In this document: positions 29,260-48,117 of the stretch, one piece after another | How positions within the stretch are numbered: position 1 is the stretch's first letter | How the letters are laid out: each line of letters begins with the position of its first letter | Made by a program: the position numbers and the translations under genes | The notes under the pieces: generated by a model | The model's database searches: none | What the model was told of the DNA's origin: nothing | Seen by the model: the letters and a program-made list of their open reading frames with translations, nothing else | Assembly (NCBI GenBank): GCA_947503305.1 | Contig: CANNDF010000001.1 | Location: 1 to 64,000 of the forward strand | Direction: 5' to 3' | DNA: 64,000 nucleotides | Origin: an uncultured Dokdonia sp. | Lineage (GTDB): Bacteria > Bacteroidota > Bacteroidia > Flavobacteriales > Flavobacteriaceae

Positions 29260-29273
29260 TAAACTATTTTGTG

Positions 29274-31025: not shown

Positions 31026-31125
31026 AGCGATATTTATAACTGATGCGTCTTAAAATTAAAACACGTATAACTGTTAAATACTCCTAAGCTAGATAACATA
31101 ACTAATAATTAATATAGTTCTTAAA

Positions 31126-31164
31126 CTTGTTACAATACATAGTTTTTAGTACTTTACTTTGCTC
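31126..31164 (+). repeat. Duplicated upstream element, copy B
   Basis: 38/39 match to 29221-29259, again 53 bases before the ATG. Confidence 0.85.
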
Positions 31165-31178
31165 AAAATACTCCACTT

Positions 31179-32945: not shown

Positions 32946-35030
32946 ATGATCCTAGAAAAAGAAAGACTACAAAACCTCCTTAAAACTCATTTTGGATATG
33001 ATCGCTTTCGCGAAAGCCAACTAGAGATTATTCAAAGTATCCTCGCTGGAGATGATGCTGTTGTCATCATGCCTACCGGAGGTGGAAAATCGTTATGTTT
33101 TCAATTACCTGCATTAGCGCTTGAAGGGACAGCTCTTGTGATTTCACCTTTAATTGCTTTGATGAAAGATCAAGTAGATGCGCTAAGAGCAAATGGTATT
33201 AAAGCTGCTTATTATAATAGTACACAACCTCAAGAAGAGATACAACAAGTAATCGAAGATTTACAAAACGGACGTTTAGATTTAATTTATATAGCACCAG
33301 AAAGCCTTCCATTATTAGATAGTACATTACAAAATTGCCTTATAAGTCTCATAGCAATAGATGAGGCTCACTGTATTTCATCATGGGGGCATGATTTTAG
33401 GCCTGCATATACACGATTAGGATATCTTAAAAAACAATATCCTGATGTCCCGCTTATAGCCCTTACTGCTACTGCAGACACATCTACTCAAGATGATATT
33501 GCCGAACAACTGTCTATCTATGACGCAAAACGATATGTATCCTCTTTTGATCGCCCTAATCTCTTTTTAGATATACGCCCTGGACAAGATAGAATCAAAC
33601 AGATCTTACAATTTTTAGATACTCATCCTTTTGAAAGTGGGATTATTTATTGTCTAAGCCGTAAAAGCACAGAACAACTAGCAGAAAAATTACGTGCGTC
33701 AGGATATACTGCAAAAGCTTATCACGCTGGGATGACTGCTATTGACCGCTCGCATGTACAGGAAGAGTTTGTGAGTGACAAAACACCTATTATCGTTGCA
33801 ACTATTGCATTTGGGATGGGTATAGACAAGAGTAACGTACGATGGGTCATCCACTATAATATGCCTAAAAATATAGAAGGGTATTATCAAGAAATAGGAC
33901 GTGCAGGAAGAGATGGATTGCCCTCCCATACACTCCTTTTTTATAGTTATGCAGATATTATACAGCTACGTAAATTTATAGAAGGTAGCCCCAATGCAGA
34001 TTATCAGATAGCAAAGCTAGAACGTATGCAACAATATACTGAAGCGTTAAGTTGCAGACGAAAGGCTTTATTAAACTATTTTGGCGAACTACAAATAAAG
34101 GATTGTGGTTATTGTGATATTTGTAAAAATCCCCCTGAGTATTTTGATGGAACAGAACTTGCTCAAAAGGTACTCTCTGCTGTTGTACGCCTTAAAGAAC
34201 AAGAAGCATTGGGAATGGTGATAGATGTTTTGAGAGGAGCTCAGAACGCTCAAGTATATGACAAAGGGCATCAACATATTAAAACATATGGAGTTGCAAA
34301 AAATGTTGCCTGGCGAGATCTGCAACAATACATTATACAAATGATTAATCAGGGGTTGTTAGAAATCCGCTTTCGCGAAAGCGGACGCCTTATCCTTACG
34401 CCATTAGCCAAAGATGTTTTGTTTAAAAACGCTACAGTACAGCTAGCAACTCTTTTACAACCGATCGCAGAAATAAAAAAAGAGCGCAAACCCTCCAAAC
34501 CTAAAGGTACACTTTTTGAAAAACTTCGAACACTACGCAATGAACTGGCCAGAGATGAAAATGTCCCTGCCTATATTATTTTTAGTGATGCAAGTCTTAA
34601 AGAAATGGAAGATCAGGAACCCGTAACCAAAACCGATTTTTTAGAAATAAGCGGTGTTGGTCAAGCAAAATTAGAGCGATACGCTCCAGACTTCATCAAG
34701 GTAATTAAAGCACATAAAACTCCTAACCTATCTAAAGGAAAAACTTATGATGCTACGCGTTTATTATTAGAAGAAGGGCATACCATAGAAGAAATTGCAC
34801 AACAGCGAGGCCTCTCTATCGGAACCATTTACAACCATATTATTAAATTATATGAAAATGGAAATCCTATCGATTTTTATACACATATCTCTCAAGAAGA
34901 AGTTGAGCAAATAGCAACTGCTAAAACAAAAGTAACCGAACCAGAACTTCTAAAATCTTACTTTGACTTTTTTGAAGAAAAAATACCTTACTGGAAAATC
35001 AAAATGGGATTATATATAGAAACACTATAA
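32946..35030 (+). CDS. recQ: ATP-dependent DNA helicase RecQ
   Basis: 694 aa. Walker A PTGGGKS is at 43-49 and DEAH at 139-142, followed by the aromatic-rich loop HCISSWGHDFRPAY. The RecQ zinc site is CRRKALLNYFGE...CGYCDIC, followed by a winged helix. The C-terminus holds an HRDC-like domain and a further HTH segment (GHTIEEIAQQRGLSIGTIYNHI). It unwinds 3'-5' in repair and recombination. It contains two copies of the palindrome, both read as RFRES (codons 20-24 and 475-479). Confidence 0.95.
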   Translation: MILEKERLQNLLKTHFGYDRFRESQLEIIQSILAGDDAVVIMPTGGGKSLCFQLPALALEGTALVISPLIALMKDQVDALRANGIKAAYYNSTQPQEEIQQVIEDLQNGRLDLIYIAPESLPLLDSTLQNCLISLIAIDEAHCISSWGHDFRPAYTRLGYLKKQYPDVPLIALTATADTSTQDDIAEQLSIYDAKRYVSSFDRPNLFLDIRPGQDRIKQILQFLDTHPFESGIIYCLSRKSTEQLAEKLRASGYTAKAYHAGMTAIDRSHVQEEFVSDKTPIIVATIAFGMGIDKSNVRWVIHYNMPKNIEGYYQEIGRAGRDGLPSHTLLFYSYADIIQLRKFIEGSPNADYQIAKLERMQQYTEALSCRRKALLNYFGELQIKDCGYCDICKNPPEYFDGTELAQKVLSAVVRLKEQEALGMVIDVLRGAQNAQVYDKGHQHIKTYGVAKNVAWRDLQQYIIQMINQGLLEIRFRESGRLILTPLAKDVLFKNATVQLATLLQPIAEIKKERKPSKPKGTLFEKLRTLRNELARDENVPAYIIFSDASLKEMEDQEPVTKTDFLEISGVGQAKLERYAPDFIKVIKAHKTPNLSKGKTYDATRLLLEEGHTIEEIAQQRGLSIGTIYNHIIKLYENGNPIDFYTHISQEEVEQIATAKTKVTEPELLKSYFDFFEEKIPYWKIKMGLYIETL
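33004..33017. repeat. Iterated palindrome GCTTTCGCGAAAGC, copy 6
   Basis: Exact copy near the start of recQ, frame 3 (RFRES). Confidence 0.9.
34369..34382. repeat. Iterated palindrome GCTTTCGCGAAAGC, copy 7
   Basis: Exact copy in recQ, frame 3 (RFRES), 1365 bases after copy 6. Flanking bases extend the palindrome to tccGCTTTCGCGAAAGCgga. Confidence 0.9.
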
Positions 35031-35175
35031 TCTATTAGAAAGATCCATATGATTCTATAAATAGGTAACTCATTTTTTATATCTTTAAGATCTAACTACG
35101 TAAAATATATTATCATTTCTTCATTTTTTTAATACTAAAGTGTCGTGACAAGTAACTTTACAGAATTAATTGCTA

Positions 35176-35204
35176 TTTGTTAAATAAGTAATTAATTACA
35201 TTTG
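35176..35204 (+). promoter_or_regulatory. Promoter of the Crp/Fnr gene and probably the Rieske array
   Basis: TTTG (35176-35179), 17-base spacer, TACATTTG (35197-35204): the best match to the Bacteroidota consensus in this window. The expected start of transcription, near 35211, leaves about 20 bases before the TTG start codon at 35230. Confidence 0.65.
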
Positions 35205-35229
35205 AAGAGTAACCAAACCATCAAACCTC

Positions 35230-35913
35230 TTGAATACTCTTACAAAATACTGGTTTTTAGAAGGCTTTAATCTCTTTAATAAACTAGGCCGACTTAAAAT
35301 GATTCGAATGTGTGAAATCCTAGAAATGGATAATATAGATAAAGGATCTATTATTGAATTAATAAATAAAGAAGAGAAAAGTCTTTTCTTTTTAAAAAAA
35401 GGGACTGTAAAAATTGTAGACACTAAAAATGACAGTGTCAAATACATCGTAAAAAAAGGAAATATATTTGGAGAATTATCTCTTTATAATGAAGAGTATG
35501 CGCGCCAAGAACAAGCAATAGCTCTTGAAGACTGCATTGTTTGCTATATAGAAGCAGATCGGATGGACCGTATTATGGAAAAAAACAAATCCCTTAAAAA
35601 TGGTATTCTTAAAATATATGGTACACGTATTCAAAAACTTGAGCGTCGGTTACAAGATCTTATTTATAAAGATAGTAGCACTCGTATTTATGATTTTATT
35701 ATAGATTATGTTACAGAATTTGGTGTTCATAAAGAAGATAGATGTGTGGCAAAAAACTTATTGTCACATAAAGATATCGCAAGTCTTACCAACACCTCTA
35801 GACAGACAGTTAGCAATACATTAAGTACCCTTAGAAGAGAAAAAATTATTAATTATAACACTAGCTTTATCTCTATCAAAAATAAAGCCTTAGAAAAACA
35901 TAAAATAAACTAG
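35230..35913 (+). CDS. Crp/Fnr-family transcriptional regulator
   Basis: 227 aa from a TTG start that fits the promoter position; an ATG at 35300 would shorten the sensor domain. The N-terminal cyclic-nucleotide-binding-type fold (about 20-120, FFLKKGTVKIVDTKNDSV, GNIFGELSLYNEE) and C-terminal HTH (about 150-225, LLSHKDIASLTNTSRQTVSNTLSTLRREKII) are clear. No N-terminal Cys cluster of the Fnr type is present; there is one Cys near the sensor start (RMCEIL). It is the first gene of a plus-strand array, 20 bases before the Rieske-glutamate-synthase gene, so it likely controls that array. Confidence 0.9.
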   Translation: MNTLTKYWFLEGFNLFNKLGRLKMIRMCEILEMDNIDKGSIIELINKEEKSLFFLKKGTVKIVDTKNDSVKYIVKKGNIFGELSLYNEEYARQEQAIALEDCIVCYIEADRMDRIMEKNKSLKNGILKIYGTRIQKLERRLQDLIYKDSSTRIYDFIIDYVTEFGVHKEDRCVAKNLLSHKDIASLTNTSRQTVSNTLSTLRREKIINYNTSFISIKNKALEKHKIN

Positions 35914-35933
35914 CCTAAAAACCCTATAACCAA

Positions 35934-37541
35934 ATGAAGCAACCCATCAAAATTGCTCAAGTAAGCAAGTTAGAAAACAAAATACCTTCACATGCAATAG
36001 TAAACGACCTTGATCTAGTAATTATAAAATACGATACAGAAGTTTCTGTACTCTATGGAAGATGTTTACATCGAGGTGCACTTATGTCTGATGGGCATAT
36101 AGAAGGACATAATCTTATTTGCGGAGTTCATGGTTGGGATTATAGATATGATACAGGAGTATCTGAGTATAACAATAAGGAAGTACTCCATAAATTTACT
36201 ACAAAAATAGAAGGGGACGATCTTTATGTAGACGAAGCAGAAATCAACACATATCTTACAAATCAACCACAGCCCTTTAATAGAGATCAATATTTAGGAG
36301 CATATGCAGATACGCATCCTGAAGAAACAGAACCTTATACAGGTTACATTAAAGAACTCGCGCAAAATGGTTTGAAAAATATTGGGCATCATGGGTTTTC
36401 TGCATCTATGGGAGTAGACCGTACTACATTGCCTCAATGGAATGATATTCAGTTTTTGCCTGCTCAACTTGCCTCCAGACCTCTTTTAGACGAAGAAGAT
36501 GTAGCCACAAAAGTAACCATAGGCTCAAAAGCAAAAAAACCTCTTATATTAGATATTCCTCTATTTGTTAGTGACATGAGTTTTGGGGCCTTATCTCGTG
36601 AAGCTAAAATTGCACTATCAAAAGGAGCTCAAATGGCAGGTACCGGAATTTGCTCAGGAGAAGGCGGTATGTTACCCCAAGAACAAGAAAATAATAGTAG
36701 GTATTTTTATGAGCTAGCTTCGGCTCAATTTGGGTTTTCCTGGGATAAACTTGATAATGTACAAGCCTTTCATTTTAAAGGAGGACAAGGGGCTAAGACA
36801 GGAACAGGAGGTCATTTACCAGGAAGTAAAGTAAGCAAAGAAATTGCCGAAGTACGTGGTTTAGAGCAGGGGCAAACAGCAATTTCACCAGCAACCTTTC
36901 CAGATTTTCATGGTGTAGATGATTTTAAAGCCTTTGCAAAAAAAGTAAGAGAGCGTACCGGAGGTATTCCGATTGGTTTTAAAATAGCTGCTAGCCATAT
37001 AGAAAAGGATATACAGTTTGCACTAGATGTAGGAGTAGATTATATTATTCTTGACGGCCGTGGAGGAGGAACTGGGTCAGCGCCTACTATTTTAAGAGAC
37101 CATATTAACGTCCCTACCATTCCTGCACTCGCTAGAGCTCGAAAATATCTTGATAAAGTAGGTGCATCAGATGTAACACTTATCATTACAGGAGGACTTC
37201 GTGTTGCAGAAGATTTTTCAAAAGCCTTAATGTTAGGGGCCGATGCTATCGCCGTTTCAAATAGTGCATTACAAGCAATAGGGTGTTTAGGAATGCGAGC
37301 ATGCGGAAGTAATAACTGTCCCGTGGGAATTGCTACTCAAAAAGAATCGCTTCGTAGTAGGTTAATAATAGATTCTTCTGCAAAACAATTACATAACTAT
37401 TTTGATGCTACAAACCACCTTATTAAGGTCGTTGCAAGAGCATGTGGTCATGATAATATTACAAAGTTTAACCATAATGACCTATCTACGTATGATTATG
37501 ATATGCATCGATTAACTGGTATTTCATATGCAGGTGTTTAA
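35934..37541 (+). CDS. Fusion of Rieske [2Fe-2S] domain and FMN-binding glutamate-synthase-like domain
   Basis: 535 aa. Residues 1-110 form a Rieske domain with all four ligands: C44-x-H46 in CLHRG and C63-x2-H66 in CGVHG. Residues 120-535 form a GltS/FMN-type glutamate synthase domain: SDMSFGALSREAKIALSKGA, DGRGGGTGSAP and a 3Fe-4S motif C451-x5-C457-x4-C462. The glutaminase domain of true glutamate synthase is absent, so the chemistry is an FMN oxidoreductase of unknown substrate, with the Rieske cluster feeding or draining electrons. First enzyme after the Crp/Fnr gene. Confidence 0.9.
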   Translation: MKQPIKIAQVSKLENKIPSHAIVNDLDLVIIKYDTEVSVLYGRCLHRGALMSDGHIEGHNLICGVHGWDYRYDTGVSEYNNKEVLHKFTTKIEGDDLYVDEAEINTYLTNQPQPFNRDQYLGAYADTHPEETEPYTGYIKELAQNGLKNIGHHGFSASMGVDRTTLPQWNDIQFLPAQLASRPLLDEEDVATKVTIGSKAKKPLILDIPLFVSDMSFGALSREAKIALSKGAQMAGTGICSGEGGMLPQEQENNSRYFYELASAQFGFSWDKLDNVQAFHFKGGQGAKTGTGGHLPGSKVSKEIAEVRGLEQGQTAISPATFPDFHGVDDFKAFAKKVRERTGGIPIGFKIAASHIEKDIQFALDVGVDYIILDGRGGGTGSAPTILRDHINVPTIPALARARKYLDKVGASDVTLIITGGLRVAEDFSKALMLGADAIAVSNSALQAIGCLGMRACGSNNCPVGIATQKESLRSRLIIDSSAKQLHNYFDATNHLIKVVARACGHDNITKFNHNDLSTYDYDMHRLTGISYAGV

Positions 37542-37648
37542 AAACATAGTCCCTCTTTTATCTATTGCTTTTTTATGCACTACGAGCACCCTAAAAGCCT
37601 AAGAAGAATTTATAGGCATCAATTATATCATTAAAAAAGAACAAAAAA

Positions 37649-38383
37649 ATGATAGAACAAATACATTTAGCTATACAGTATCTAGCAACAGCGGCTATTA
37701 GTTTTATAGATAAAAAAGAAGATGATAGTCATACCAATCTTGGTTTTTCTATAGCATCAAAAACAATGAGTACTCGCCCACTTTCTGAAAAAGGAGAATC
37801 GCTATCATTTAGTTATGATCATTTTGCATTAACATGGAAAAATACCCATGAAGAAAAATCTATATCACTGGATGGGAAAACACATCTTCAAATTCTACAA
37901 TGGTTAGAAAAAACAACCGCTCATCTATCAAAAACATATCATTACGACTTACATTACGATTTGCCTTATAGCATTGATCATAATTATACATACTATCGTA
38001 AAGACCAAAATCGTTTAAACGAATTATCACAGCTTCGTACACTTGCCCAAGATACATTTGAAAATTTCTTAGACGATCAAGTCCTTGTTTCAGAAATACG
38101 AGTATGGCCTCATCATTTTGATACAGGTGGGTTTGTTATATTAGAAAACGGAATAGGAGTAGGGTTCGGACTTGGAATTCCAGATGATGTACATGATGAT
38201 TACTATTTTTACATAGGTGGATATCAAGGACATGATGCTATAGACCCAAAAAAATTCCCTCCACTTACGCATGGACACTGGGTAAATACAGGCTTCAAAG
38301 GAGGTATATTATCTGTTGTTGGAGTAGACAAACAGAAGAGCTTATCATTTTTAAATGAAGCAATTACCAGCTATAAAAAATAA
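37649..38383 (+). CDS. Unrecognised protein, 244 aa
   Basis: I do not recognise the family with confidence. No signal peptide or membrane helix is seen, so it is probably cytoplasmic. Notable features are an aromatic/His-rich middle (YHYDLHYDLPYSIDHNYTYY) and a VWPHHFDTGG segment followed by GVGFGLGIPDDVHDDYYFYIGGY, which could bind metal or a cofactor. The WPHHFD pattern recalls some DUF5996-type proteins, but that link is weak. It lies between two Rieske-fusion genes, 26 bases upstream of the second, so it probably works with them. Confidence 0.75.
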   Translation: MIEQIHLAIQYLATAAISFIDKKEDDSHTNLGFSIASKTMSTRPLSEKGESLSFSYDHFALTWKNTHEEKSISLDGKTHLQILQWLEKTTAHLSKTYHYDLHYDLPYSIDHNYTYYRKDQNRLNELSQLRTLAQDTFENFLDDQVLVSEIRVWPHHFDTGGFVILENGIGVGFGLGIPDDVHDDYYFYIGGYQGHDAIDPKKFPPLTHGHWVNTGFKGGILSVVGVDKQKSLSFLNEAITSYKK

Positions 38384-38409
38384 ACATATAACAACCTAAA
38401 AAACAACCC

Positions 38410-40365
38410 ATGACTCAAAAAAAAGAAACTGTATGGTATAAAGTTCTCGATAATAAAGATAGACTTCCCGAGGGTAGAGTTCAAACCGTAACTGCAGGGC
38501 ATCAAGGAGTTTGTCTAACACATTTTGAGGGAAAGTATTCAGCGTTAGATAATAGATGTCCACATCAAGGAGGGCCTTTAGGAGAGGGGTCTATAGAAAA
38601 TGGAATGTTACGATGTCCGTGGCACGGATGGGATTTTCATCCATGTACTGGAATGCCTCCAGGAGGTTTTGATGATGGGGTTACTACATTTGAAGTAAAA
38701 GAGGAAGGAGATGCCATTTATGTAGGTATTCCCGAAGAACCAGCCCATGAAGAAACAATATCTGATGTAATGGTCGAAACGATGGTGAATTGGGGAGTTA
38801 ATACAGTTTTTGGAATGGTAGGCCATAGTAATTTAGGTGTAGCAGATGCTATGCGTAGGCAAGAAAGCGAAGGGAAACTTCGTTATTTTGGTATACGTCA
38901 TGAAGGCGCTGCTTCTTTTGCTGCTTCTGGATATGCAAAACTTACAGGAAAACCAGCAGCATGTTTTGGAATTGCAGGTCCTGGAGCTACAAATATGTAT
39001 ACAGGAATGTGGGATGCAAAAGTAGACAGAGCCCCTCTTCTTGCACTTTCAGGACAAGTAAATACGCAAGTTGTAGGAACAGGTGCCTTTCAAGAAGTAG
39101 ATCTCGTAAAAGCATTTGATAGTGTCACTGTTTTTAATCATGCTGTTCACCTTAATGCAAATCATAGTGAACTGATGTCTCTGGCTATAAAGCATGCATT
39201 GATACAGAGGGACGTCGTTCATTTAACATTTCCTGATGAAGTTGCTTTTACCAAAAAGCCTAAGAAAGCTAAAGCTCAAACTCCAGAAAATAGAATTACA
39301 CAGTTTGGAATTGCTCCTCCTAAAGAAATGGTGGATAAAGCAAGTGATCTCATCATAGGATCTCAAAGGCCTGCTATTATTGTAGGGCATGGAGCTCGTT
39401 TTCAGATGGAAGCCATTACTGCTTTCGCGAAAGCGTTAAACTGTCCCGTTATTACAACATTTAAAGGGAAAGGTCTTATCGCAGATGGTCATGAACTAGG
39501 TTGTGGAGTCCTAGGAAGAAGTGGAACTCCTATAGCTTCGTGGTTTATGAATGAAAGTGATCTCCTTATTGTTTTTGGAGCTTCTTTCTCAAATCATACT
39601 GGAATTACTCCAAAAAAACCTATCATTCAAGTTGACTTCGATCCAATGGCATTGAGTAAATTTCATAAAGTAGATTGTGCTTTATGGGGTGAGATTTCGG
39701 AAACTCTCGCAATTCTAACAGAAAGGACTCTAGGAAAAATAAACACGGTAGATCAACGACCAGAAATTGCAAGCCGATGGAATATATGGCGAGAAGAAAA
39801 AGAGAGTAGATTACAGGATTCTAGCAGTAAAGGACTGAGTTCAATAGCTGTCTTTGACGCAATGAATAAAGTAACACCTGCAGATGCTGTAATTGCTGTA
39901 GATGTTGGTAATAACACCTATTCCTTTGGGCGGTATTTTGAGCCAAAAAATCAATCTGTATTAATGTCAGGTTATCTTGGATCTATAGGTTTTGCATTAC
40001 CTGCAGCCATGGGTGCATGGGCTGCACAAGGAGATCAAAGACCAATATGGTCTGTCTCTGGAGATGGAGGACTCGGACAATACTTATCTGAAATCACAAC
40101 CTTAGTAAAGTATAATATGAATATTAAACATATTGTACTTAATAACTCTGAGCTAGGAAAAATTTCTAAAGAACAACGTGCTGCCGAACTAGATGTATGG
40201 CAAACAAGTCTACGTAATCCAAGTTTTGCTTTGTATGCAGAAAACTGCGGTGCTTTAGGTATACGTGTAGAAAAACTAGAAGATCTAATTCCGGCAATGA
40301 AAAAACTCAGAGATCATGATGGTCCTGCACTACTTGAAGTAATAACAGATGTAAACCTTATTTAA
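38410..40365 (+). CDS. Fusion of Rieske [2Fe-2S] domain and thiamine-diphosphate enzyme (pyruvate oxidase/acetolactate synthase-like)
   Basis: 651 aa. The N-terminal Rieske domain (1-110) has C50-x-H52 (CPHQGG) and C69-x2-H72 (CPWHG). Then comes a full three-domain ThDP enzyme: pyrimidine domain with the catalytic Glu E165 (RHEGAAS), a central domain (GFGARF-like segment, VGHGARFQ), and the ThDP/Mg motif GDG (551-553) ... NN (578-579). Overall it looks like pyruvate oxidase or acetolactate synthase; the substrate is unknown. The fused [2Fe-2S] centre suggests electrons from 2-oxoacid oxidation go to an acceptor. One palindrome copy encodes AFAKA from codon 338. Confidence 0.9.
   Translation: MTQKKETVWYKVLDNKDRLPEGRVQTVTAGHQGVCLTHFEGKYSALDNRCPHQGGPLGEGSIENGMLRCPWHGWDFHPCTGMPPGGFDDGVTTFEVKEEGDAIYVGIPEEPAHEETISDVMVETMVNWGVNTVFGMVGHSNLGVADAMRRQESEGKLRYFGIRHEGAASFAASGYAKLTGKPAACFGIAGPGATNMYTGMWDAKVDRAPLLALSGQVNTQVVGTGAFQEVDLVKAFDSVTVFNHAVHLNANHSELMSLAIKHALIQRDVVHLTFPDEVAFTKKPKKAKAQTPENRITQFGIAPPKEMVDKASDLIIGSQRPAIIVGHGARFQMEAITAFAKALNCPVITTFKGKGLIADGHELGCGVLGRSGTPIASWFMNESDLLIVFGASFSNHTGITPKKPIIQVDFDPMALSKFHKVDCALWGEISETLAILTERTLGKINTVDQRPEIASRWNIWREEKESRLQDSSSKGLSSIAVFDAMNKVTPADAVIAVDVGNNTYSFGRYFEPKNQSVLMSGYLGSIGFALPAAMGAWAAQGDQRPIWSVSGDGGLGQYLSEITTLVKYNMNIKHIVLNNSELGKISKEQRAAELDVWQTSLRNPSFALYAENCGALGIRVEKLEDLIPAMKKLRDHDGPALLEVITDVNLI
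39421..39434. repeat. Iterated palindrome GCTTTCGCGAAAGC, copy 8
   Basis: Exact copy inside the Rieske-ThDP gene, frame 1 (AFAKA). Confidence 0.9.
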
Positions 40366-40366
40366 A

Positions 40367-40585
40367 ATGGAAATAGTCATTCAAGTATTTTTAATTTTCC
40401 TAGGTATATATGCAGGTATTGGACTTTTGTTTGGTATTTACTTTTTTGTAAAAGGCGCTTCTCAATTAGACCCTTTGATTAAAGACAGTAAGTGGACTGT
40501 TAGACTATTACTCTTTCCTGGAGCAGTTGGATTATGGCCTATAGTACTCTTAAAAATAATCAACCTTCAAAAGATACAGCCATGA
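40367..40585 (+). CDS. Small membrane protein, 72 aa
   Basis: Two hydrophobic helices (about 3-28 and 47-65) joined by a short polar loop (KGASQLDPLIKDSKW). No recognised family. The ATG lies one base after the stop of the Rieske-ThDP gene and its stop overlaps the next ATG (ATGA), so it is translated with its neighbours. It may be a membrane partner or anchor of the Rieske enzymes; this is inference from position. Confidence 0.8.
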   Translation: MEIVIQVFLIFLGIYAGIGLLFGIYFFVKGASQLDPLIKDSKWTVRLLLFPGAVGLWPIVLLKIINLQKIQP

Positions 40586-40974
40586 TAACTTCATTGAGAA
40601 AAACACATAAAATCCTCTGGATGCTATTGGCAATTGTAATGCCTTTATTAATTGTACTTTCTATAGGGAGTATCAAAAAGGTATTACTTACAGATAGTGA
40701 TGTGATTGTTAATTCTACCTCTGGAAATACCTTATTAGAAAATCAACAATTTACTATTTCTATACATAAAACAAATAACACACTTATTTTACATGTTGTT
40801 CTTAAAAAGCCTCTTAAAAATGCATCTTCATTAGTCTATAGTACTCCTAATGATATACTTATAGGTACAATAACAAAAAAAGGGATTTATGATTTTGAAC
40901 TGCCTTCTGGATCGAATGGCATCCGAATTTATGATGAGATAAAAGAAATAGATATACTAAATATAGCACTATAA
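40582..40974 (+). CDS. Membrane-anchored protein of unknown function, 130 aa
   Basis: 130 aa from the ATG at 40582, which overlaps the upstream stop as ATGA; an in-frame start 48 bases earlier would lie inside the previous gene. One membrane helix (about 11-31) is followed by a predicted extracytoplasmic beta-rich domain of about 95 residues (LLENQQFTISIHKTNNTLILHVVLKK). No cysteine or cofactor motif is seen. The stop overlaps the next ATG by one base. Confidence 0.75.
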   Translation: MITSLRKTHKILWMLLAIVMPLLIVLSIGSIKKVLLTDSDVIVNSTSGNTLLENQQFTISIHKTNNTLILHVVLKKPLKNASSLVYSTPNDILIGTITKKGIYDFELPSGSNGIRIYDEIKEIDILNIAL

Positions 40975-42005
40975 TGGGATTAGATTACCAAACTGTATTA
41001 TGGAATAAGCAAAAAAAGACATATGATAAATGGATTGCTATAACTATGCTTATTTATCTCATATGCTTTATAGGAATTACGATACTAACAAATCCTGAAA
41101 CCAGTATAGAGACTTTAATTATAAGAGCCTTTGGGACACTAGCCATCGCTTTATTACATATCATACTTGCTATAGGCCCCTTAACTAGACTAAACCCTAA
41201 GTTTCTACCTATATTATACAATAGGAGGCATTTAGGTGTAAGTATGTTTCTGGCAGCTTTAGTTCATGGAGGATTTTCTATATTTCAATTTCATTCACTA
41301 GGAACTACAAATCCCATTTATGCATTATTTACTTCCAATATAGAGTACAATTCATTCACTAATTTTCCATTTCAAGTACTTGGCTTTTTTGCATTAATTA
41401 TTTTATTCTTAATGGCAGCGACAAGTCATGATTTTTGGCTCAAAAATTTATCTCCAAAAACATGGAAACGTCTCCATATGATGGTATACATAGCCTATGG
41501 GTTAATTATTTTACATATTTTCCTTGGGGCGTTACAACAACAGCCATCATGGGGAAGTATTGGAGTCTTAAGTCTCGGTTTTATTGTTATTACATCATTA
41601 CACCTCTCTACAGCTTTTAAAGAAAGTAAACTAGATAAAAGTAAAACATCACATGTAGACGACGGATGGGAATATGTATGTACTACTGATGAAATTCCAG
41701 AAGACAGAGCAAAAATTTTTATAGTAGACAAAGAACGTATTGCTATCTTTAAATACGACCAAAAACTTTCTGCAATTTCTAATGTATGTAAACATCAAGG
41801 AGGGCCTTTAGGAGAAGGAAAAATAGTTGATGGTTGCATAACTTGCCCATGGCATGGATATCAATACCTCCCGCATAATGGACAATCTCCTCCCCCATTT
41901 ACAGAAAAAGTAAGTACCTATCGACTGCGATTAATTGGCAAAAAAATATATGTACTCCCAAAAGCCCTGGCCGAGGGAACTGCTGTTGAACCTGTTATAC
42001 TATAA
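40974..42005 (+). CDS. Ferric-reductase-like heme membrane domain fused to a C-terminal Rieske domain
   Basis: 343 aa. Six hydrophobic helices span about 17-220 and contain His in LLHIIL, LVHGG, RLHMM and ILHIFL, the pattern of heme-ligating ferric-reductase/MsrQ-like membrane proteins. The last 120 residues form a Rieske domain with C272-x-H274 (CKHQGG) and C291-x2-H294 (CPWHG), whose sequence is close to that of the Rieske-ThDP gene (QGGPLGEG in both). It likely moves electrons between the [2Fe-2S] centre, membrane heme and perhaps quinone. Third Rieske fusion of the array. Confidence 0.88.
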   Translation: MGLDYQTVLWNKQKKTYDKWIAITMLIYLICFIGITILTNPETSIETLIIRAFGTLAIALLHIILAIGPLTRLNPKFLPILYNRRHLGVSMFLAALVHGGFSIFQFHSLGTTNPIYALFTSNIEYNSFTNFPFQVLGFFALIILFLMAATSHDFWLKNLSPKTWKRLHMMVYIAYGLIILHIFLGALQQQPSWGSIGVLSLGFIVITSLHLSTAFKESKLDKSKTSHVDDGWEYVCTTDEIPEDRAKIFIVDKERIAIFKYDQKLSAISNVCKHQGGPLGEGKIVDGCITCPWHGYQYLPHNGQSPPPFTEKVSTYRLRLIGKKIYVLPKALAEGTAVEPVIL

Positions 42006-42011
42006 ATCTAT

Positions 42012-42809
42012 ATGGAAGAGAATAAAGACGAATTTTATATCGGTTATCTAGATGAAGTCCCTGTTAAAACTAAAAAAAGCATAAAACGTTTTGTACTTTT
42101 TTCTATAGGAGTCATTATCATCATTGCTACTGTGTTTTCATTAACACAAAATACATTTAAAAATAGTACGTTTGAGCTTACGACCAGTACTAAAATTATG
42201 GGTGTATACCATGAGATGCCCTATCCCATGCTGAAAGTCAAAACCTCCGAAAACACATTTAAAAATATCCTGTTACTTGGTTTTGGAAAATTGAGCGTTA
42301 ATCCATATTTAAACAAAATACGGAAGGAAGTCCCTGAACTCTCTGGAAGTATGTTAAGTATTGAAGGAAATCTTATTTATTACAATGGGAAAACACTTTT
42401 ACAAGTTACAAGTGATGAAAAAATAAACCTAATAGAAACAGCAAATTCAAAAAGATTACCTATTTCTAATATACTAGTAGAGGGCATTGAGCTCAAAGGA
42501 GAGGTCATAGATCCCAAATGTTATTTTGGTGTGATGAAACCTGGAAAAGGTAAAATACATAGAAGTTGTGCTGTATTATGTATTTCAGGAGGTATTCCCC
42601 CTGTACTAGCAACAACAGATGAAAATAATATTTCTGAGTATTATTTAATTACGGATCAACAAGGGCAACCTATTCACAAAGAGATTACTCCATATGTAGG
42701 AAAACCATCTTTACTCAAAGGAAATGTTGTACAGATAGAAGATTGGTATCAACTTAGAATTGATGTTAATACCATAAAAGATTTAGAATTACCCTCAAGG
42801 ATATACTGA
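42012..42809 (+). CDS. Membrane-anchored protein with Cys/His motif
   Basis: 265 aa. One membrane helix (about 24-44) follows a charged N-terminal tail; the rest is probably periplasmic. A compact motif near residue 170 reads DPKCYFGVMKPGKGK then HRSCAVLCISGG, placing C170, H183, C186 and C190 where they could bind a metal or cluster. I recognise no named family, but the motif looks strongly constrained compared with the rest. It starts 6 bases after the ferric-reductase/Rieske gene, so a role in the same electron-transfer system is likely. Confidence 0.8.
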   Translation: MEENKDEFYIGYLDEVPVKTKKSIKRFVLFSIGVIIIIATVFSLTQNTFKNSTFELTTSTKIMGVYHEMPYPMLKVKTSENTFKNILLLGFGKLSVNPYLNKIRKEVPELSGSMLSIEGNLIYYNGKTLLQVTSDEKINLIETANSKRLPISNILVEGIELKGEVIDPKCYFGVMKPGKGKIHRSCAVLCISGGIPPVLATTDENNISEYYLITDQQGQPIHKEITPYVGKPSLLKGNVVQIEDWYQLRIDVNTIKDLELPSRIY

Positions 42810-42820
42810 CCTATTAAATT

Positions 42821-43483
42821 ATGGACAGATTTGTAGCGTTTTTAAACACCTATAAGTACCTCATAGCTATTATTAGTGTGTTTAATTTTTTATTGACACC
42901 TATTTATGCTAGCATTTCTGAAATATATCCTGCTCATGTAGTTGTAATCAATTATACGCTATTAATTTTAGCCAGTTCCTTAATTGCATCAAACGCCAAA
43001 ACTAGGGCTAGATCCTATCTTTTGGGAGCATTTGCATTACTAAGCATTTGGCTTGAATTTTCAAGACCAGAGTCAGATATGATTATAATATGTAGACTTG
43101 TTTCTTCTTTTTTATTGTTTTTTTACTTCTGTTTATTATTAATACAACAGCTGCGTAAAATAGATGAAATCAATTTACAGTTTATACTCGGTCCTATATT
43201 AGGCTTCATATATCTCGGTATTCTAGGCGGTATTTTATTTGAGACTATCCATTTTATTGATCCAAATTCTTTTCATTTAAGGGGAGATTATTCTGGATAT
43301 GTATTCTATTATTTTAGTTTTATTAGTATTACAACCGTAGGGTATGGAGATATTACCCCTTTAACACCTCAGGCACAATCTATCACATTAGTATTAAATA
43401 TTATAGGGCAGTTTTACCTTGCTATTGTTATCGCGGTCTTTGTGGGAAAATATATTAATGTAAAACCTAATCAAAATGTTTGA
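42821..43483 (+). CDS. Two-pore-helix potassium channel (ion channel family)
   Basis: 220 aa with about six hydrophobic helices; the pore loop carries the K+ selectivity filter TVGYGD (172-177) before the last helix. The C-terminus is short, with no RCK/TrkA regulatory domain. It starts 11 bases after the Cys/His-motif gene and overlaps the following antiporter gene by 8 bases, so channel and antiporter are co-translated. Confidence 0.88.
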
Positions 43484-44717
43484 GTCATTCAGTATCGTAT
43501 TTACAATTGCCGTATTATTAAGCTTTATTAATTATAAATGGCTTAAACTACCCAGTACTATAGGTTTATTGATTCTAAGCCTTATTCTCGTAATTCCAAT
43601 AACATTAAGTGAGTCTCTTTTTCCAGATTTTTATCGGTTCTTTTGTGATATTATTGTCAATGCTGATTTTAAAACATTACTCTTAGATGGTATTTTAAGT
43701 TTCTTACTTTTTGCAGGAGCACTCCATGTGGATTTAGGCCTACTAGCCAAAGAAAAAAAATCCATCTTATTATTTGCCACTACTGGTGTTATTATTTCAA
43801 CATTTATTGTAGGAGGTTCTATATTTGGAATTGCCCAGTTATTAGATCTGGAGCTACCATTTATACATGCATTATTGTTTGGTGCTTTAATTTCTCCTAC
43901 AGATCCTATTGCTGTAATGGCTATTCTTAAAAAAGCAAATTTAGATAAGAAATTAGGGATAAAAATTGAAGGGGAATCGTTATTTAATGATGGTATAGGT
44001 GTCGTTGTATTCTCAGGCATCTTACTTATAGCCACAGCTATGGGAGAACATAGTAATTCTGAAATCGGTGCCGAAATTGGAACACTATTTTTAGAAGAAG
44101 CGATAGGTGGATTGGTATTTGGACTTGTTTTAGGGTTTATTGGGCTCAAACTTATTTTTTCATCAAAAGACAATCCACATTTAGCTGTAATGATAAGCCT
44201 AGCTATTGTTCTAGGAGGGTATGCAGGGTCTTTTATTTTACATGTATCTGGTCCTCTGGCTATGGTTGTTTCTGGGCTTATGATAGGAAACAAAATACAT
44301 ATTGGCGAGAATAAAAGTTTACTTCAAAAAACATTTAATGAATTTTGGGAAATACTAGATGATATTTTTAATGGTGTATTATTTGTATTAATTGGTCTTG
44401 CACTGCATTTATTAAAATTTAATGCTTCCTATTTACTATTAGGTATTATCGCTATTATTATTGTTTTATTAGCACGTTTTATTTCTGTGTATTTGCCATA
44501 CTCTTTATTAAAACATCAAGAAAGTAAACCTATTAAAACAGTAATTGTTTTAACATGGGGTGGATTACGTGGGGGTATTTCAATCGCATTAGCACTAAGT
44601 TTAACAGATGCTCTTTCGGGAAGCCTTATTTTATATATTACATATGTTGTAGTATTATTTTCTATTATAGTTCAAGGACTTAGTATAGGAAAACTTGTCA
44701 AAAAGCTTTTTGCATAA
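43476..44717 (+). CDS. Na+/H+ antiporter (CPA1/NhaP family)
   Basis: 413 aa with about 12 hydrophobic helices. Family motifs are visible: [19 protein letters not shown] (the ion-site TD) and [14 protein letters not shown] (the ND pair), plus the late [15 protein letters not shown] segment. There is no cytoplasmic regulatory tail. It exchanges Na+ or K+ for H+. It overlaps the K+ channel gene, suggesting joint control of ion balance and membrane potential in cells using the redox genes upstream. Confidence 0.92.
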
Positions 44718-44747
44718 TCCTTAATTACAAGCGACACTACTTTTATT

Positions 44748-45383
44748 ATGGAAAAAGACGAGAGACATCTAGGTAAAATAAAGGATAAGCTCCTCATGGA
44801 AGAACTCAATGTGAATAAAGATGAGCTAAAATCACTTAAAAAAAAACTGTCTAAAATAGAACCTAGACCCGAAAAAGGAGTAGAAACGTTATTTAGATTA
44901 CTCTCAAAAAATCAATATACACTTAATGCAATGATTGATAGAAAATCTAACATTCTTATTTCTATAAATGCATTGATCCTTTCTATAATTTTAGGCACTG
45001 TTTTAAACCAATTAGACAAAGATCCACACTTAATTTATCCTGCTATATTAATCCTATTGACAAATCTGGTCTCTATTGCGTATGCTGTTGTTGCTACTCG
45101 TCCTGAGTTAAAACACGGAGGGCGCAATACAAACAACTTAATGTTTTATGGGAACTTCTACGATATGGAAGAAACAGAATATGTTGGGAAAATTACAGCG
45201 CTTATGAACCAAGGTGATTAATTATACAAAACCATTGCAAAGGACACCTTTTATCTTGGAAAAACCATCGATCGAAAATTTAAACTATTGCGTAAATCAT
45301 TCAATATTTTTTTGATAGGGATTATCCTTTCTGTCATTGCTTTTCTTCTTTGCCATTTGCTTTTTGGAGGCTATTTTAGATAA
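44748..45383 (+). pseudogene. DUF5706/Pycsar-effector-like membrane protein interrupted by an in-frame TAA
   Basis: The frame from the ATG at 44748 reads 157 aa to a TAA at 45219-45221, then continues in the same frame for 53 codons to a TAA at 45381. The first part has a charged N-terminus, the family-like segment QYTLNAMIDRKSNILISINA, and two helices (about 67-86 and 96-115). The part after the stop (KDTFYLGKTIDRKFKLLRKS, then a third helix) looks like the normal C-terminal end of DUF5706 proteins, where a Tyr codon would stand in place of the stop. So the gene is either inactivated by one base change, or yields a short two-helix form. No frameshift is needed. Confidence 0.75.
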
Positions 45384-45454
45384 AAAGCATCCACCATAAG
45401 ATTCATTTTATTGTATTTTAATACTATAATTCTTTTCCGTAGTTTTAAAACCTA

Positions 45455-46897
45455 ATGAATGTATTTTCAATCTCAAAAAAAATAGGTTTCCTTGTTGGGC
45501 CATTGCTATTTTTCATCGTTTTAGCACTCCCATTTGATATTATAAATCCTGCCATAGATAAAGTAATATCTGTAGCTCTTTGGATGATTGTATGGTGGAT
45601 TACAGAAGCCGTTTCTATTTCAGTGACCGCTTTGATTCCTTTAGCACTATTCCCCTTATTAGGGGTCACAGATATTAAAAGTGTTGCAGGTAATTATGCA
45701 AATCCTATCGTCTATTTATTTTTTGGAGGTTTTGTAATTGCACTAGCTTTGGAAAATGTACAGCTTCATAAGCGTATTGCACTTTCTATTCTCAAAATTA
45801 CAGGGACCAAAGCAAACGGAATTATTCTTGGATTTATGATCGCTACGGCATTAATGAGCATGTGGATCTCTAATACAGCAAGTACTGTCGTAATGTTGCC
45901 TATTGCTGTCTCTGTTATTCAGTTATTAATAGATGATGCAGACGGATATACAAAAAACGATCGCAACTTTGCATTGTCTATTATGCTAGGGATTGCTTTC
46001 TCTGCAAATATTGGAGGGATGTCTACCTTAATTGGCACACCTCCTAATTCTGTAATGCTTGCATTCTTAAATGAAACTTATCAAATAGATATTGGCTTTT
46101 TCCAATGGATGAAAATGGGAGTTCCTTTTGCAATTCTTATGCTAATAATTACATACTTCTGTATTACTCGTATTTTTTTTAGAAATAATCTAGAGCATAT
46201 CGGAGGATCAGGAACTATAATACAAAACGAACTGGATAAACTAGGGACTATGCACAAAGGAGAGAAAGTAGTACTTTTTATATTTTTGTGTACTGCCGTG
46301 GCCTGGATGTTGCGTAGCTACCTCAACACCTTACTCCCTGCTATTACACTAACAGATACAACCATTAGTATCATCGCTGCTGTATTGATGTTTATCGTAC
46401 CTATAGATTTTAAATCTGGATCATTCCCATTGCAATGGGAAGATACTGCTCGTTTACCTTGGGGGATATTGATTCTCTTTGGAGGTGGACTTGCTCTGGC
46501 TTCTGGGCTTGCTCAATCTGGTTTTATTGATCTTATCGGAAACTATATCTCTTCCCAAGAAGATTGGAGTATATGGGTTGTAACTGCTGTCCTTATTTTT
46601 TTAATGCTCTTTATGACAGAATTAATGAGTAATGTAGCTCTAGTTACTATCCTTATTCCATTGGTTGTTGGAATTGCTATTGGGATGGATACCCCTATTT
46701 TACAGATGGTAATTCCAGTGACACTAGCTTCAAGTTGTGCCTTTATGCTTCCTATGGCAACGCCTCCTAATGCAATTGTATTTGCTAGTGGTCATGTGCG
46801 TGTAGATCAAATGGCGCGTATAGGGATTGTACTTAATCTAATTTCGGTAGGCTTGTTATTTGCATTGGCCTATTGGGTAGTTCCCTTGTTATTTTAG
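45455..46897 (+). CDS. SLC13/DASS-family sodium:anion symporter
   Basis: 480 aa with about 12 membrane segments. The two SNT-type motifs of the family are present: WISNTASTVVMLP and, in the second half, LMSNVALVTILIPL, together with SANIGGMSTLIGTPPN. It imports dicarboxylates (succinate, malate) or sulfate with Na+; the substrate is undecided. One palindrome copy lies 9 bases after the stop. Confidence 0.9.
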   Translation: MNVFSISKKIGFLVGPLLFFIVLALPFDIINPAIDKVISVALWMIVWWITEAVSISVTALIPLALFPLLGVTDIKSVAGNYANPIVYLFFGGFVIALALENVQLHKRIALSILKITGTKANGIILGFMIATALMSMWISNTASTVVMLPIAVSVIQLLIDDADGYTKNDRNFALSIMLGIAFSANIGGMSTLIGTPPNSVMLAFLNETYQIDIGFFQWMKMGVPFAILMLIITYFCITRIFFRNNLEHIGGSGTIIQNELDKLGTMHKGEKVVLFIFLCTAVAWMLRSYLNTLLPAITLTDTTISIIAAVLMFIVPIDFKSGSFPLQWEDTARLPWGILILFGGGLALASGLAQSGFIDLIGNYISSQEDWSIWVVTAVLIFLMLFMTELMSNVALVTILIPLVVGIAIGMDTPILQMVIPVTLASSCAFMLPMATPPNAIVFASGHVRVDQMARIGIVLNLISVGLLFALAYWVVPLLF

Positions 46898-46906
46898 GTT
46901 TTTTAC

Positions 46907-46920
46907 GCTTTCGCGAAAGC
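46907..46920. repeat. Iterated palindrome GCTTTCGCGAAAGC, copy 9
   Basis: Exact copy, intergenic, 9 bases after the SLC13 stop. Flanks extend the palindrome to 20 bases (TACGCTTTCGCGAAAGCGTA). Confidence 0.9.
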
Positions 46921-47028
46921 GTAATATCAAAACAATAATTCTTTTTAAATATTTAGTTAGTTACGATACCTCTCTGTACTTATCTATGTATTTTTATTGT
47001 ACTTTACAGTACCTAACTCAATCGATTT

Positions 47029-48117
47029 ATGAATAAAGAACTAAGGAAGTATCTTAAATACGTATCTCAATCGGTTGTTTTTTGGGCAATTGTACTGTTT
47101 TTATGGGGTATGTTTCGATTTTATGGTCTTGATACCATGGAAGGGATTCAGATTGATGAAGACTTCAAGGAAGTAATGCAAATGAAAAATTTGTTACGCC
47201 TATTTACAGTTTCTGGTGCTTTGATAGGTTTTGTTTTTGCTACGATAGAATTCTTTTTTGAAAAATTCACCTCCAACAGAGTACCTATTGGGGTCAGTAC
47301 ACTTACTAAAACTGTACTTTATTTACTTACTATTATTGTGATTTCTACAGGGGGGAAATATCTCGTTAATCAACGCTTTAGTTTGGATATTACAATCAAC
47401 CCTAGTCAATGGTGGGAGGATAAGCAGTTTATTATTACCATCGTTTATATCTTGCTAGTATCATTGGTATTTTCGTTTATTAAAATTGCAAACGAAAAAT
47501 TTGGGAAAGGTATATTTCTGAAAATGCTTATTGGTCGTTATAAAAAACCTCAAGAAGAGAAACGTATTTTTATGTTTCTGGATCTGAAATCCTCGACCAC
47601 TATTGCAGAGACTCTAGGACATTTTAAATATAGTCAACTCATCCAAGACTGTTTTTATGATCTTAATGATATTGTCCCTAAATATGCTGCCGAAATCTAC
47701 CAGTATGTAGGTGATGAGGCGGTATTGAGTTGGCCATATAAAAAAGGTCTGGTAAATAATAATTGTGTTGCTTTGTTTTTTATGTTCCAAAATATTCTTA
47801 CTCAGAAAGCTCATTATTATAAAGAAAAATATGGTTTGGTGCCAGAATTTAAAGCGGGCCTGCATGGTGGTAAGCTTATGGTCGCAGAAGTAGGCGTAGT
47901 AAAAAAAGAGTTGGCTTTTCATGGAGATGTGATCAATACCTCAGCAAGAATACAGGGAGAATGCAATACCTATAAAGTACCCATATTAATCTCAGAAGGT
48001 TTAAAAGATGCATTGCATGATGCTACTACTAGTTCTTATAGTACTAGACATATAGGAAAAGTACTTTTAAAAGGAAAGAATGAGAAACTTAATCTGTTTA
48101 CAATTCTTGAGAATTGA
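47029..48117 (+). CDS. Membrane-bound class III adenylate/guanylate cyclase
   Basis: 362 aa. Four membrane helices (about 13-31, 58-77, 91-111, 133-151) are followed by a class III cyclase domain (about 178-360). The metal-binding aspartates D185 (FLDLKSS) and D229 (GDEAVLSW) are present, as are the transition-state N303/R307 pair (NTSAR), so it should be active. A Lys in the KKELAFHGD segment and D300 suit adenine binding, so cAMP is the likely product. It is a single gene with no matched effector directly beside it. Confidence 0.88.
   Translation: MNKELRKYLKYVSQSVVFWAIVLFLWGMFRFYGLDTMEGIQIDEDFKEVMQMKNLLRLFTVSGALIGFVFATIEFFFEKFTSNRVPIGVSTLTKTVLYLLTIIVISTGGKYLVNQRFSLDITINPSQWWEDKQFIITIVYILLVSLVFSFIKIANEKFGKGIFLKMLIGRYKKPQEEKRIFMFLDLKSSTTIAETLGHFKYSQLIQDCFYDLNDIVPKYAAEIYQYVGDEAVLSWPYKKGLVNNNCVALFFMFQNILTQKAHYYKEKYGLVPEFKAGLHGGKLMVAEVGVVKKELAFHGDVINTSARIQGECNTYKVPILISEGLKDALHDATTSSYSTRHIGKVLLKGKNEKLNLFTILEN

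Follow-up and report, generated by a model that had tools for sequence, protein, structure and literature searches.

Several groups of proteins close to the genes considered here have been described. In pyruvate oxidase PoxB of Escherichia coli, Phe465 enhances transfer from thiamine pyrophosphate (TPP) to flavin adenine dinucleotide (FAD) (PMC7245740). Proteins that combine CDGSH motifs with glutamate synthase are classed as type 5 CISDs (PMC3174974 and PMC5859297), and Rieske was listed in 2013 among the partner domains of the ferric reductase domain, FRD (PMC3591440). We analysed a window of 64,000 nucleotides, the whole stretch from position 1 to 64,000 of contig CANNDF010000001.1 from an uncultured Dokdonia sp. 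(assembly GCA_947503305.1), in which an array at 35230-45383 encodes three different Rieske fusions: with a glutamate-synthase-like flavin mononucleotide (FMN) domain (Rieske-FMN), with a thiamine diphosphate (ThDP) enzyme (Rieske-ThDP) and with a haem-type membrane reductase (FRR). The parts of the array belong to known families; the Rieske-ThDP fusion, the Rieske-glutamate-synthase fusion and the cluster itself were undescribed among the matches listed in the open-access literature, as judged by titles and the beginnings of abstracts. Comparison with relatives supports the array as a conserved recurrent unit, and we give about even chances to the proposal that the core of this Crp/Fnr-headed locus of redox or stress type works as an electron relay.

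Relatives were sought with the Rieske-ThDP protein as a query, taking one genome per species, and the 80 loci referred to throughout are the best of at least 576 relatives, ranked by similarity to that protein. The named organisms nearest by this gene are Aquimarina and other Flavobacteriaceae. In agreement with the original prediction, eleven genes on the + strand follow each other with tight spacing. The gaps along the array are 20, 107, 26, 1, -4, -1, 6, 11, -8 and 30 bases; three junctions overlap, and the gap of 107 bases is the single long one. The three predicted Rieske fusions were recovered as well, with Pfam PF00355 above the cut-off in all of them, accompanied by Glu_synthase, TPP-enzyme domains and Ferric_reduct, respectively. 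The features are:

35230..35913, + strand, Crp/Fnr-type regulator (cNMP_binding and HTH_Crp_2), marking where the conserved array ends on the left, tblastn match in 27 of 80 loci
35934..37541, + strand, Rieske-FMN enzyme, N-terminal Rieske and Glu_synthase FMN domain, in 62 of 80 loci
37528..37662, + strand, probable outer-membrane beta-barrel gene relic, in which a signal-peptide-like start and a stop precede an in-frame 16-residue match
37649..38383, + strand, g244, soluble protein, in 54 of 80 loci
38410..40365, + strand, Rieske-ThDP enzyme, N-terminal Rieske and pyruvate-oxidase-like ThDP enzyme with three TPP-enzyme domains (Pfam)
40367..40585, + strand, tm72, small protein predicted to have two membrane helices, precedes FRR or p129-FRR
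40582..40974, + strand, p129, one predicted membrane helix and a long second part, start set at the ATGA overlap
40974..42005, + strand, FRR, MsrQ/ferric-reductase-like haem membrane domain (Ferric_reduct) and C-terminal Rieske
42012..42809, + strand, cysTM, one predicted membrane helix and a large Cys/His domain
42821..43483, + strand, K+ channel-like protein (Ion_trans_2), optional neighbour, 18 of 80 loci
43476..44717, + strand, Na+/H+ exchanger family antiporter, frequent neighbour, 51 of 80 loci
44748..45221, + strand, PycTM (DUF5706) membrane protein, shortened by an in-frame TAA, 15 of 80 loci

The predicted right end of the array stood only in part: the last gene is present, but its stop lies at 45219-45221, and position 45383 is reached only by passing this in-frame TAA. 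Aligned relatives of PycTM continue without a stop to about the counterpart of 45383. In the 107-base gap between Rieske-FMN and g244, the probable beta-barrel relic corresponds to a weak tblastn match (E 0.003 in a 1.1-kb target); the beta-barrel family is present in 20 of the 80 loci, and in several relatives it is located between Rieske-FMN and g244.

Counted by gene families, FRR, p129 and cysTM all occur in one set of 29 loci, next to Rieske-FMN (62), g244 (54), antiporter (51), K+ channel (18) and PycTM (15). The tblastn counts are identical for the first three of the latter, 27 for Crp/Fnr, 19 for the K+ channel, 16 for PycTM, 29 each for FRR, cysTM and tm72, and 28 for p129. Rieske-FMN shares the strand of Rieske-ThDP in 61 of 62 loci and FRR in 29 of 29, which is also always the case for p129 and cysTM, and the reading frames of p129 and FRR overlap in all 29 loci. 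The genes found on either side of the array in the window are rare in or absent from the 80 loci (recQ and a beta-lactamase-like gene in 2 each, SLC13 and a cyclase in 0). The membrane group (tm72, p129, FRR, cysTM) mostly follows Rieske-ThDP, precedes it in three loci (L067, L068, L084) and comes after the antiporter in L036; neighbours are thus kept although their order changes, with the membrane group shifting relative to Rieske-ThDP and the antiporter.

Co-occurrence was examined in two sets of whole genomes, a family sample of 199 genomes, every one from a different genus, and a phylum sample of 198 Bacteroidota genomes. In the family sample, FRR was found in 11 genomes, Rieske-ThDP in 17 and the FMN protein in 23, the last count including G259, with the CDGSH type only (see below), and G355, in which the FMN protein is a fragment and FRR is in two pieces. 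FRR is accompanied by Rieske-ThDP in 11/11 and by the FMN protein in 10/11 genomes, and Rieske-ThDP by the FMN protein in 15/17, the fragment in G355 being the FMN protein there (p <1e-9; co-occurrence and linkage p-values take no account of kinship). Three genomes of this sample, G228, G311 and G328, are apparently identical records to loci L069, L050 and L056, and the ThDP genes of G295 and G088 have one internal stop each. The phylum sample contains 6 genomes with full-length Rieske-ThDP, 33 with full-length Rieske-FMN and 8 with FRR; all eight FRR genomes carry full-length Rieske-FMN, and a cysTM profile detected cysTM in the same eight, although the match in G183 spans positions 4-197 of 263. 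The smallest linked unit seen is comprised of Rieske-FMN, tm72, FRR, cysTM and g244, in this order, in G139, G191, G046 and G127, where no Rieske-ThDP was found, and in G077, where ThDP follows. We ruled out p129 as part of a minimal operon, since it is absent in these five FRR genomes, and matches to its family there fall on tm72. The search for co-occurrence put forward with the original prediction thus revealed that the array recurs as a unit and that the fusions are found together far beyond chance.

Over the entire 4.26-Mb genome, four Rieske domains were found, three of them in the array within 5.95 kb, for which simulation with uniform placement gives a chance of ~2e-5. This concentration bears on the possibility that the locus is a stress-gene island without any shared circuit, held together by common regulation (redox, osmotic, pH), with each Rieske serving its own protein. 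Stress-type genes are frequent next to the array in relatives, such as the antiporter and K+ channel and, among the 80 loci, YHS (23), NAD(P)HX epimerase (8), thioredoxin reductase-glutaredoxin (4), OsmC (3) and MscS (2); array parts are separable and, by the comparison below, the Rieske domains appear to have been recruited separately. Against an island of this kind stand the crowding of three out of four Rieske domains into 6 kb of the genome, the constant association of FRR with Rieske-FMN in the phylum sample and with Rieske-ThDP in the family sample, and the overlapping frames of p129 and FRR, and we regard it as unlikely. The stress-type neighbours themselves fit a stress setting under the relay and under every alternative to it. 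Two of them, the K+ channel and the antiporter, were predicted to complete the array; they do adjoin the core in the window, but in relatives are only optional neighbours.

The Rieske ligands CxH...CxxH are intact in all three array proteins. The loop HQGGPLGEG...CPWHG is found in the ThDP and haem proteins, confirming the near-identity previously noticed in two of the three, while the loop of the FMN protein differs. Among 30 outgroup Rieske rows, GPLGEG occurs only in L134, which is itself an FRR; by this comparison, the loop appears not to be generic to Rieske domains. Mean identity between Rieske domains is 33% for the ThDP-FRR pair, 20% for ThDP-FMN and 19% for FRR-FMN, against 20-25% to outgroup rows. 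The ThDP-FRR pair therefore has some excess identity (33% vs about 25%), but for the Rieske of the FMN protein, identity to the other two (19-20%) does not exceed that to outgroup rows (20%), and a common recent origin of all three is not supported by either pairwise identity or the tree with the 30 outgroup rows, in which few columns leave many forks unresolved, long-branch warnings were raised and L134 is included as an outgroup row. All trees were built by a quick method.

In Rieske-ThDP, the ligands are C50, H52, C69 and H72. Among NCBIfam models, pyruvate oxidase PRK08611 scores highest (389 bits, under the cut-off of 742), and the best match to a solved structure is E. coli PoxB. The N, M and C ThDP-enzyme domains of PoxB type are present together with the catalytic Glu; the catalytic-type Glu, the GDG...N motif and the Rieske ligands are conserved. 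D409, to which an FAD role is ascribed, is conserved in 82/82 rows. K584 aligns with PoxB F465, as counted along the alignment, and Lys occupies this position in 90/90 Rieske-fused rows (88 distinct), which form one family and are thus not independent observations, and in 0/22 unfused relatives. The latter comprise 21 sequences from phylum-sample genomes, with the own genome included, and a single one from locus L016. Half of the unfused rows have Trp as in acetolactate synthase (11) and half Glu as in PoxB (11) at the motif position that comes next. The fused protein also ends ~40 residues before the PoxB end (in the alignment, its residue 646 of 651 is paired with 527 of 572 in PoxB), and the C-terminal lipid-activation helix (558-568 in E. 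coli) is missing. With Lys in place of Phe465 and no lipid helix, the fused enzyme is devoid of both PoxB devices, while a Rieske domain has been added to it.

The unfused gene in L016 (14245-16005) is a second ThDP gene located near Rieske-ThDP, with Phe at the relay position. It was considered as the closest unfused relative and rejected: when unfused rows were ranked by closeness to the window protein, it was not among the first eight, the best of which reaches 31.8%.

In Rieske-FMN, the Rieske residues C44, H46, C63 and H66 and the 3Fe-4S-type Cys set C451, C457 and C462 are invariant. The FMN protein of two Shewanella genomes with a Rieske-ThDP gene carries two N-terminal CDGSH motifs instead of Rieske, on a core 62% identical to the core in the window. 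The same tandem CDGSH-FMN architecture was found in G259 and as a second copy in G275:

L109, 3906-5456, FMN core with tandem CDGSH
L110, FMN core with tandem CDGSH
L111, 3823-5334, FMN core with tandem CDGSH
L112, 2216-3724, FMN core with tandem CDGSH

No intact array gene lies alongside the four inspected CDGSH-FMN genes. In L112, a free small CDGSH-type protein is encoded nearby (4694-4933), and an adjoining 56-residue open reading frame (ORF; 4141-4311) resembles the start plus the end of Rieske-ThDP, perhaps as a deletion remnant. The phylum sample has six remoter FMN cores (41-50% identity), and the three that were inspected (G005, G071 and G087; L118, L119, L120) have one or two N-terminal rubredoxin-type domains. 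In a quick tree of 88 FMN cores, midpoint-rooted and with long-branch warnings, the four CDGSH rows make up a starred clade within a starred group to which four Rieske rows belong as well, and the rubredoxin rows stand apart. Related FMN cores thus bear CDGSH or rubredoxin in place of Rieske, and the iron-sulfur plug is exchangeable, in line with the modular Rieske adaptors suggested for this locus.

This variation could also be expected if the Rieske domains were redox or NO/O2 sensors switching the ThDP and FMN enzymes, and not electron conduits. The Crp/Fnr regulator at the array head would suit a sensory role, as would the second FMN copy of G182 (L095), which retains a Rieske-like N-terminus without the Cys/His ligands. 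However, rubredoxin, usually a plain one-electron carrier, also occurs on FMN cores, and the Rieske of FRR is located at what we take to be the place of the electron-input domain in NOX/FRE proteins, so that a sensor role seems to us very improbable.

Rieske-FMN can also be replaced as a whole. A gene of the FMN_red family (PF03358, one member scanned) is present in 10 of the 80 loci, none of which has Rieske-FMN (Fisher 2e-8 over 81 loci, including the window). The clearest swap is seen between L005 and L008, which share the same order from family f15 to the antiporter, with only Rieske-FMN and the FMN_red-like gene exchanged. In G236, the FMN_red-like gene replaces Rieske-FMN and the entire membrane group is present.

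L062, 7141-7896, and nine further loci, FMN_red-like flavoprotein gene
L113, 5635-6393, FMN_red-like flavoprotein gene

In the membrane group, FRR histidines H62, H86, H98, H152, H168 and H181 and its Rieske ligands C272, H274, C291 and H294 are invariant in 30/30 rows. FRR has the features of the ferric reductase domain superfamily (PF01794, conserved His in transmembrane helices TM3 and TM5); hydropathy places five helices above threshold, the H86-H98 stretch, counted as TM3, being below it. Segments rich in K/R are on the same side as the C-terminal Rieske, which suggests that this domain faces the cytosol. For cysTM and p129, hydropathy indicates a single N-terminal helix each. Residues D167, C170, H183, C186 and C190 of cysTM are invariant in 30/30 rows, and the Cys/His residues possibly form a site of 3 Cys + 1 His. 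In four other phylum-sample genomes, cysTM is represented only by a small protein homologous to its second half (L159-L162). In comparisons of profiles with solved structures, cysTM and g244 gave only weak matches (best E 0.76 and 0.26) and no apparent relation; g244, without a Pfam match, has Q10, D26, WPHH, D158, G174, D179, Y186 and Y188 invariant in 38 aligned rows.

With the MsrQ model, FRR reaches 46.9 bits, below the cut-off of 130, and no MsrP-type protein (PF00174) was found in this genome, the control matching in 9/14 genomes; on these grounds, membership of FRR in MsrPQ was rejected. An outward reductase that only resembles MsrPQ is a separate matter. In such a system, a cytosolic flavoprotein, Rieske-FMN or FMN_red-like, would pass electrons to FRR, which would keep the outer cysTM reduced for repair or metal handling, with the ThDP enzyme as a side branch or a further donor. 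The MsrQ score itself points in this direction, as do the restriction of full-length cysTM to FRR genomes in the phylum sample, its invariant 3 Cys + 1 His, the four genomes that have the FMN-tm72-FRR-cysTM-g244 unit without Rieske-ThDP, and the FMN_red-family gene where Rieske-FMN is absent, although the lack of MsrP counts against it, and 7 of the 10 FMN_red loci are without FRR in the locus (no search for FRR was made in the rest of those genomes), so that the FMN_red gene tracks the ThDP enzyme and not FRR. We consider an outward reductase of this type rather unlikely.

The relay proposal draws on linkage, co-occurrence and intact ligands, on the Lys signature of the fused enzymes, on plug exchange and on the pairing of FRR with cysTM. 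As in the original prediction, electron flow from the soluble ThDP and FMN enzymes through Rieske centres to the membrane reductase is plausible. The FMN/3Fe-4S enzyme and the ThDP enzyme, both with their putative cofactors bound, would exchange single electrons with the cytosolic Rieske of FRR via [2Fe-2S] plugs, and the haem histidines of FRR may carry electrons either to the quinone pool or to the Cys/His domain of cysTM, predicted to be outside. Probable contacts are those of tm72, plus p129 where present, as partners in the FRR membrane complex. In the ThDP branch, whose substrate would be a 2-oxoacid such as pyruvate, the Rieske plug would substitute for the PoxB exit (Phe465, FAD and the C-terminal lipid-responsive helix), so that the ThDP enzyme would give electrons to a membrane protein without membrane binding of its own. 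More specifically, and with less than even confidence, we tentatively propose a new membrane-coupled module, in which ThDP and FMN/3Fe-4S enzymes have given up direct coupling to quinone or ferredoxin and discharge one-electron equivalents via plug-in [2Fe-2S] domains to a dedicated Rieske-haem complex (tm72, FRR, cysTM and in many cases p129), which would also provide a new Cys/His site for a metal or cluster on the outer side.

Several observations weigh against the relay, or against parts of it. FRR is missing in 51 of the 80 loci, part of which are on short contigs. Scattered orthologues had been named as grounds for refutation; since the fusions co-occur and cluster, this mostly fails, with three exceptions: FMN, FRR and ThDP are on three separate contigs in G183, ~350 kb separate FRR and ThDP in G311, and in G175, where tm72, an unmatched 157-residue ORF, FRR, cysTM and ThDP are together, FMN lies apart from them on another contig. 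In the five genomes without p129, the space of 31-82 bases between tm72 and FRR is too small for it. At the F465 position, unfused relatives have Met (18), Phe (2) or Leu (2); with Met prevailing over Phe, Lys marks the fused family, but Phe is no general device at this position. A non-oxidative ThDP enzyme is also compatible with the lost relay residue. No Rieske-FMN was detected at E 1e-60 in 9/9 searched genomes of the ten with FMN_red, all but that of L008, and the FMN branch is therefore dispensable or replaceable. That the three Rieske domains do not group as one recent family belongs here, too.

We have also inspected the surroundings of the array. Scanning of 34900-47100 gave 48 promoter-like sites vs 54.5 in shuffled sequences and 8 terminator-like sites vs 6.3; with about as many sites as in shuffles, the scans are uninformative on the transcript. 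A class III nucleotide cyclase is encoded at 47029-48117, near the PycTM gene. A Pycsar pair of cyclase and PycTM was rejected, because PycTM occurs in 15/80 array loci and the cyclase in 0/80; not being conserved with the array, the cyclase is not evidently part of such a pair. At 29271-32930, two similar long proteins with a signal-like start are arranged in tandem.

If the relay holds, 2-oxoacid oxidation would be tied to the membrane without PoxB-style docking or soluble ferredoxin, and Rieske, CDGSH and rubredoxin would act as exchangeable iron-sulfur plugs on related flavin cores. The locus recurs in many Flavobacteriaceae, and may accordingly contribute to their handling of redox, pH and salt stress. 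The analysis also provides handles for further work: the Lys signature of fused ThDP enzymes, the co-travelling membrane group, the new Cys/His domain and g244.

Compared with described systems, Rieske-ThDP shares with PoxB/PRK08611 three ThDP-enzyme domains, the catalytic-type Glu and GDG...N, and differs in the N-terminal Rieske, Lys for Phe465 and the absence of the lipid-activation helix. The window FMN protein resembles type 5 CISDs (PMC3174974) in an FMN core 62-65% identical and in an N-terminal plug of [2Fe-2S] type. The Glu_synthase FMN core with 3Fe-4S-type cysteines is present in both, but type 5 CISDs have two N-terminal CDGSH motifs where the window protein has Rieske, and the latter belongs to an array. 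FRR has in common with the MsrQ/ferric reductase superfamily the Ferric_reduct domain and conserved His in predicted helices three and five, and carries a C-terminal Rieske instead of an FAD/nicotinamide adenine dinucleotide domain; unlike MsrQ, it is partnered by tm72, cysTM and often p129, in a genome without MsrP. Finally, the second half of cysTM has the motif of small secreted-type Cys/His proteins (GEVVDxxCY...HxxCAxxC...G, with Asp changed to Glu in one of four), which are 127-167 residues long and stand alone, while cysTM has an additional membrane helix and a first domain.

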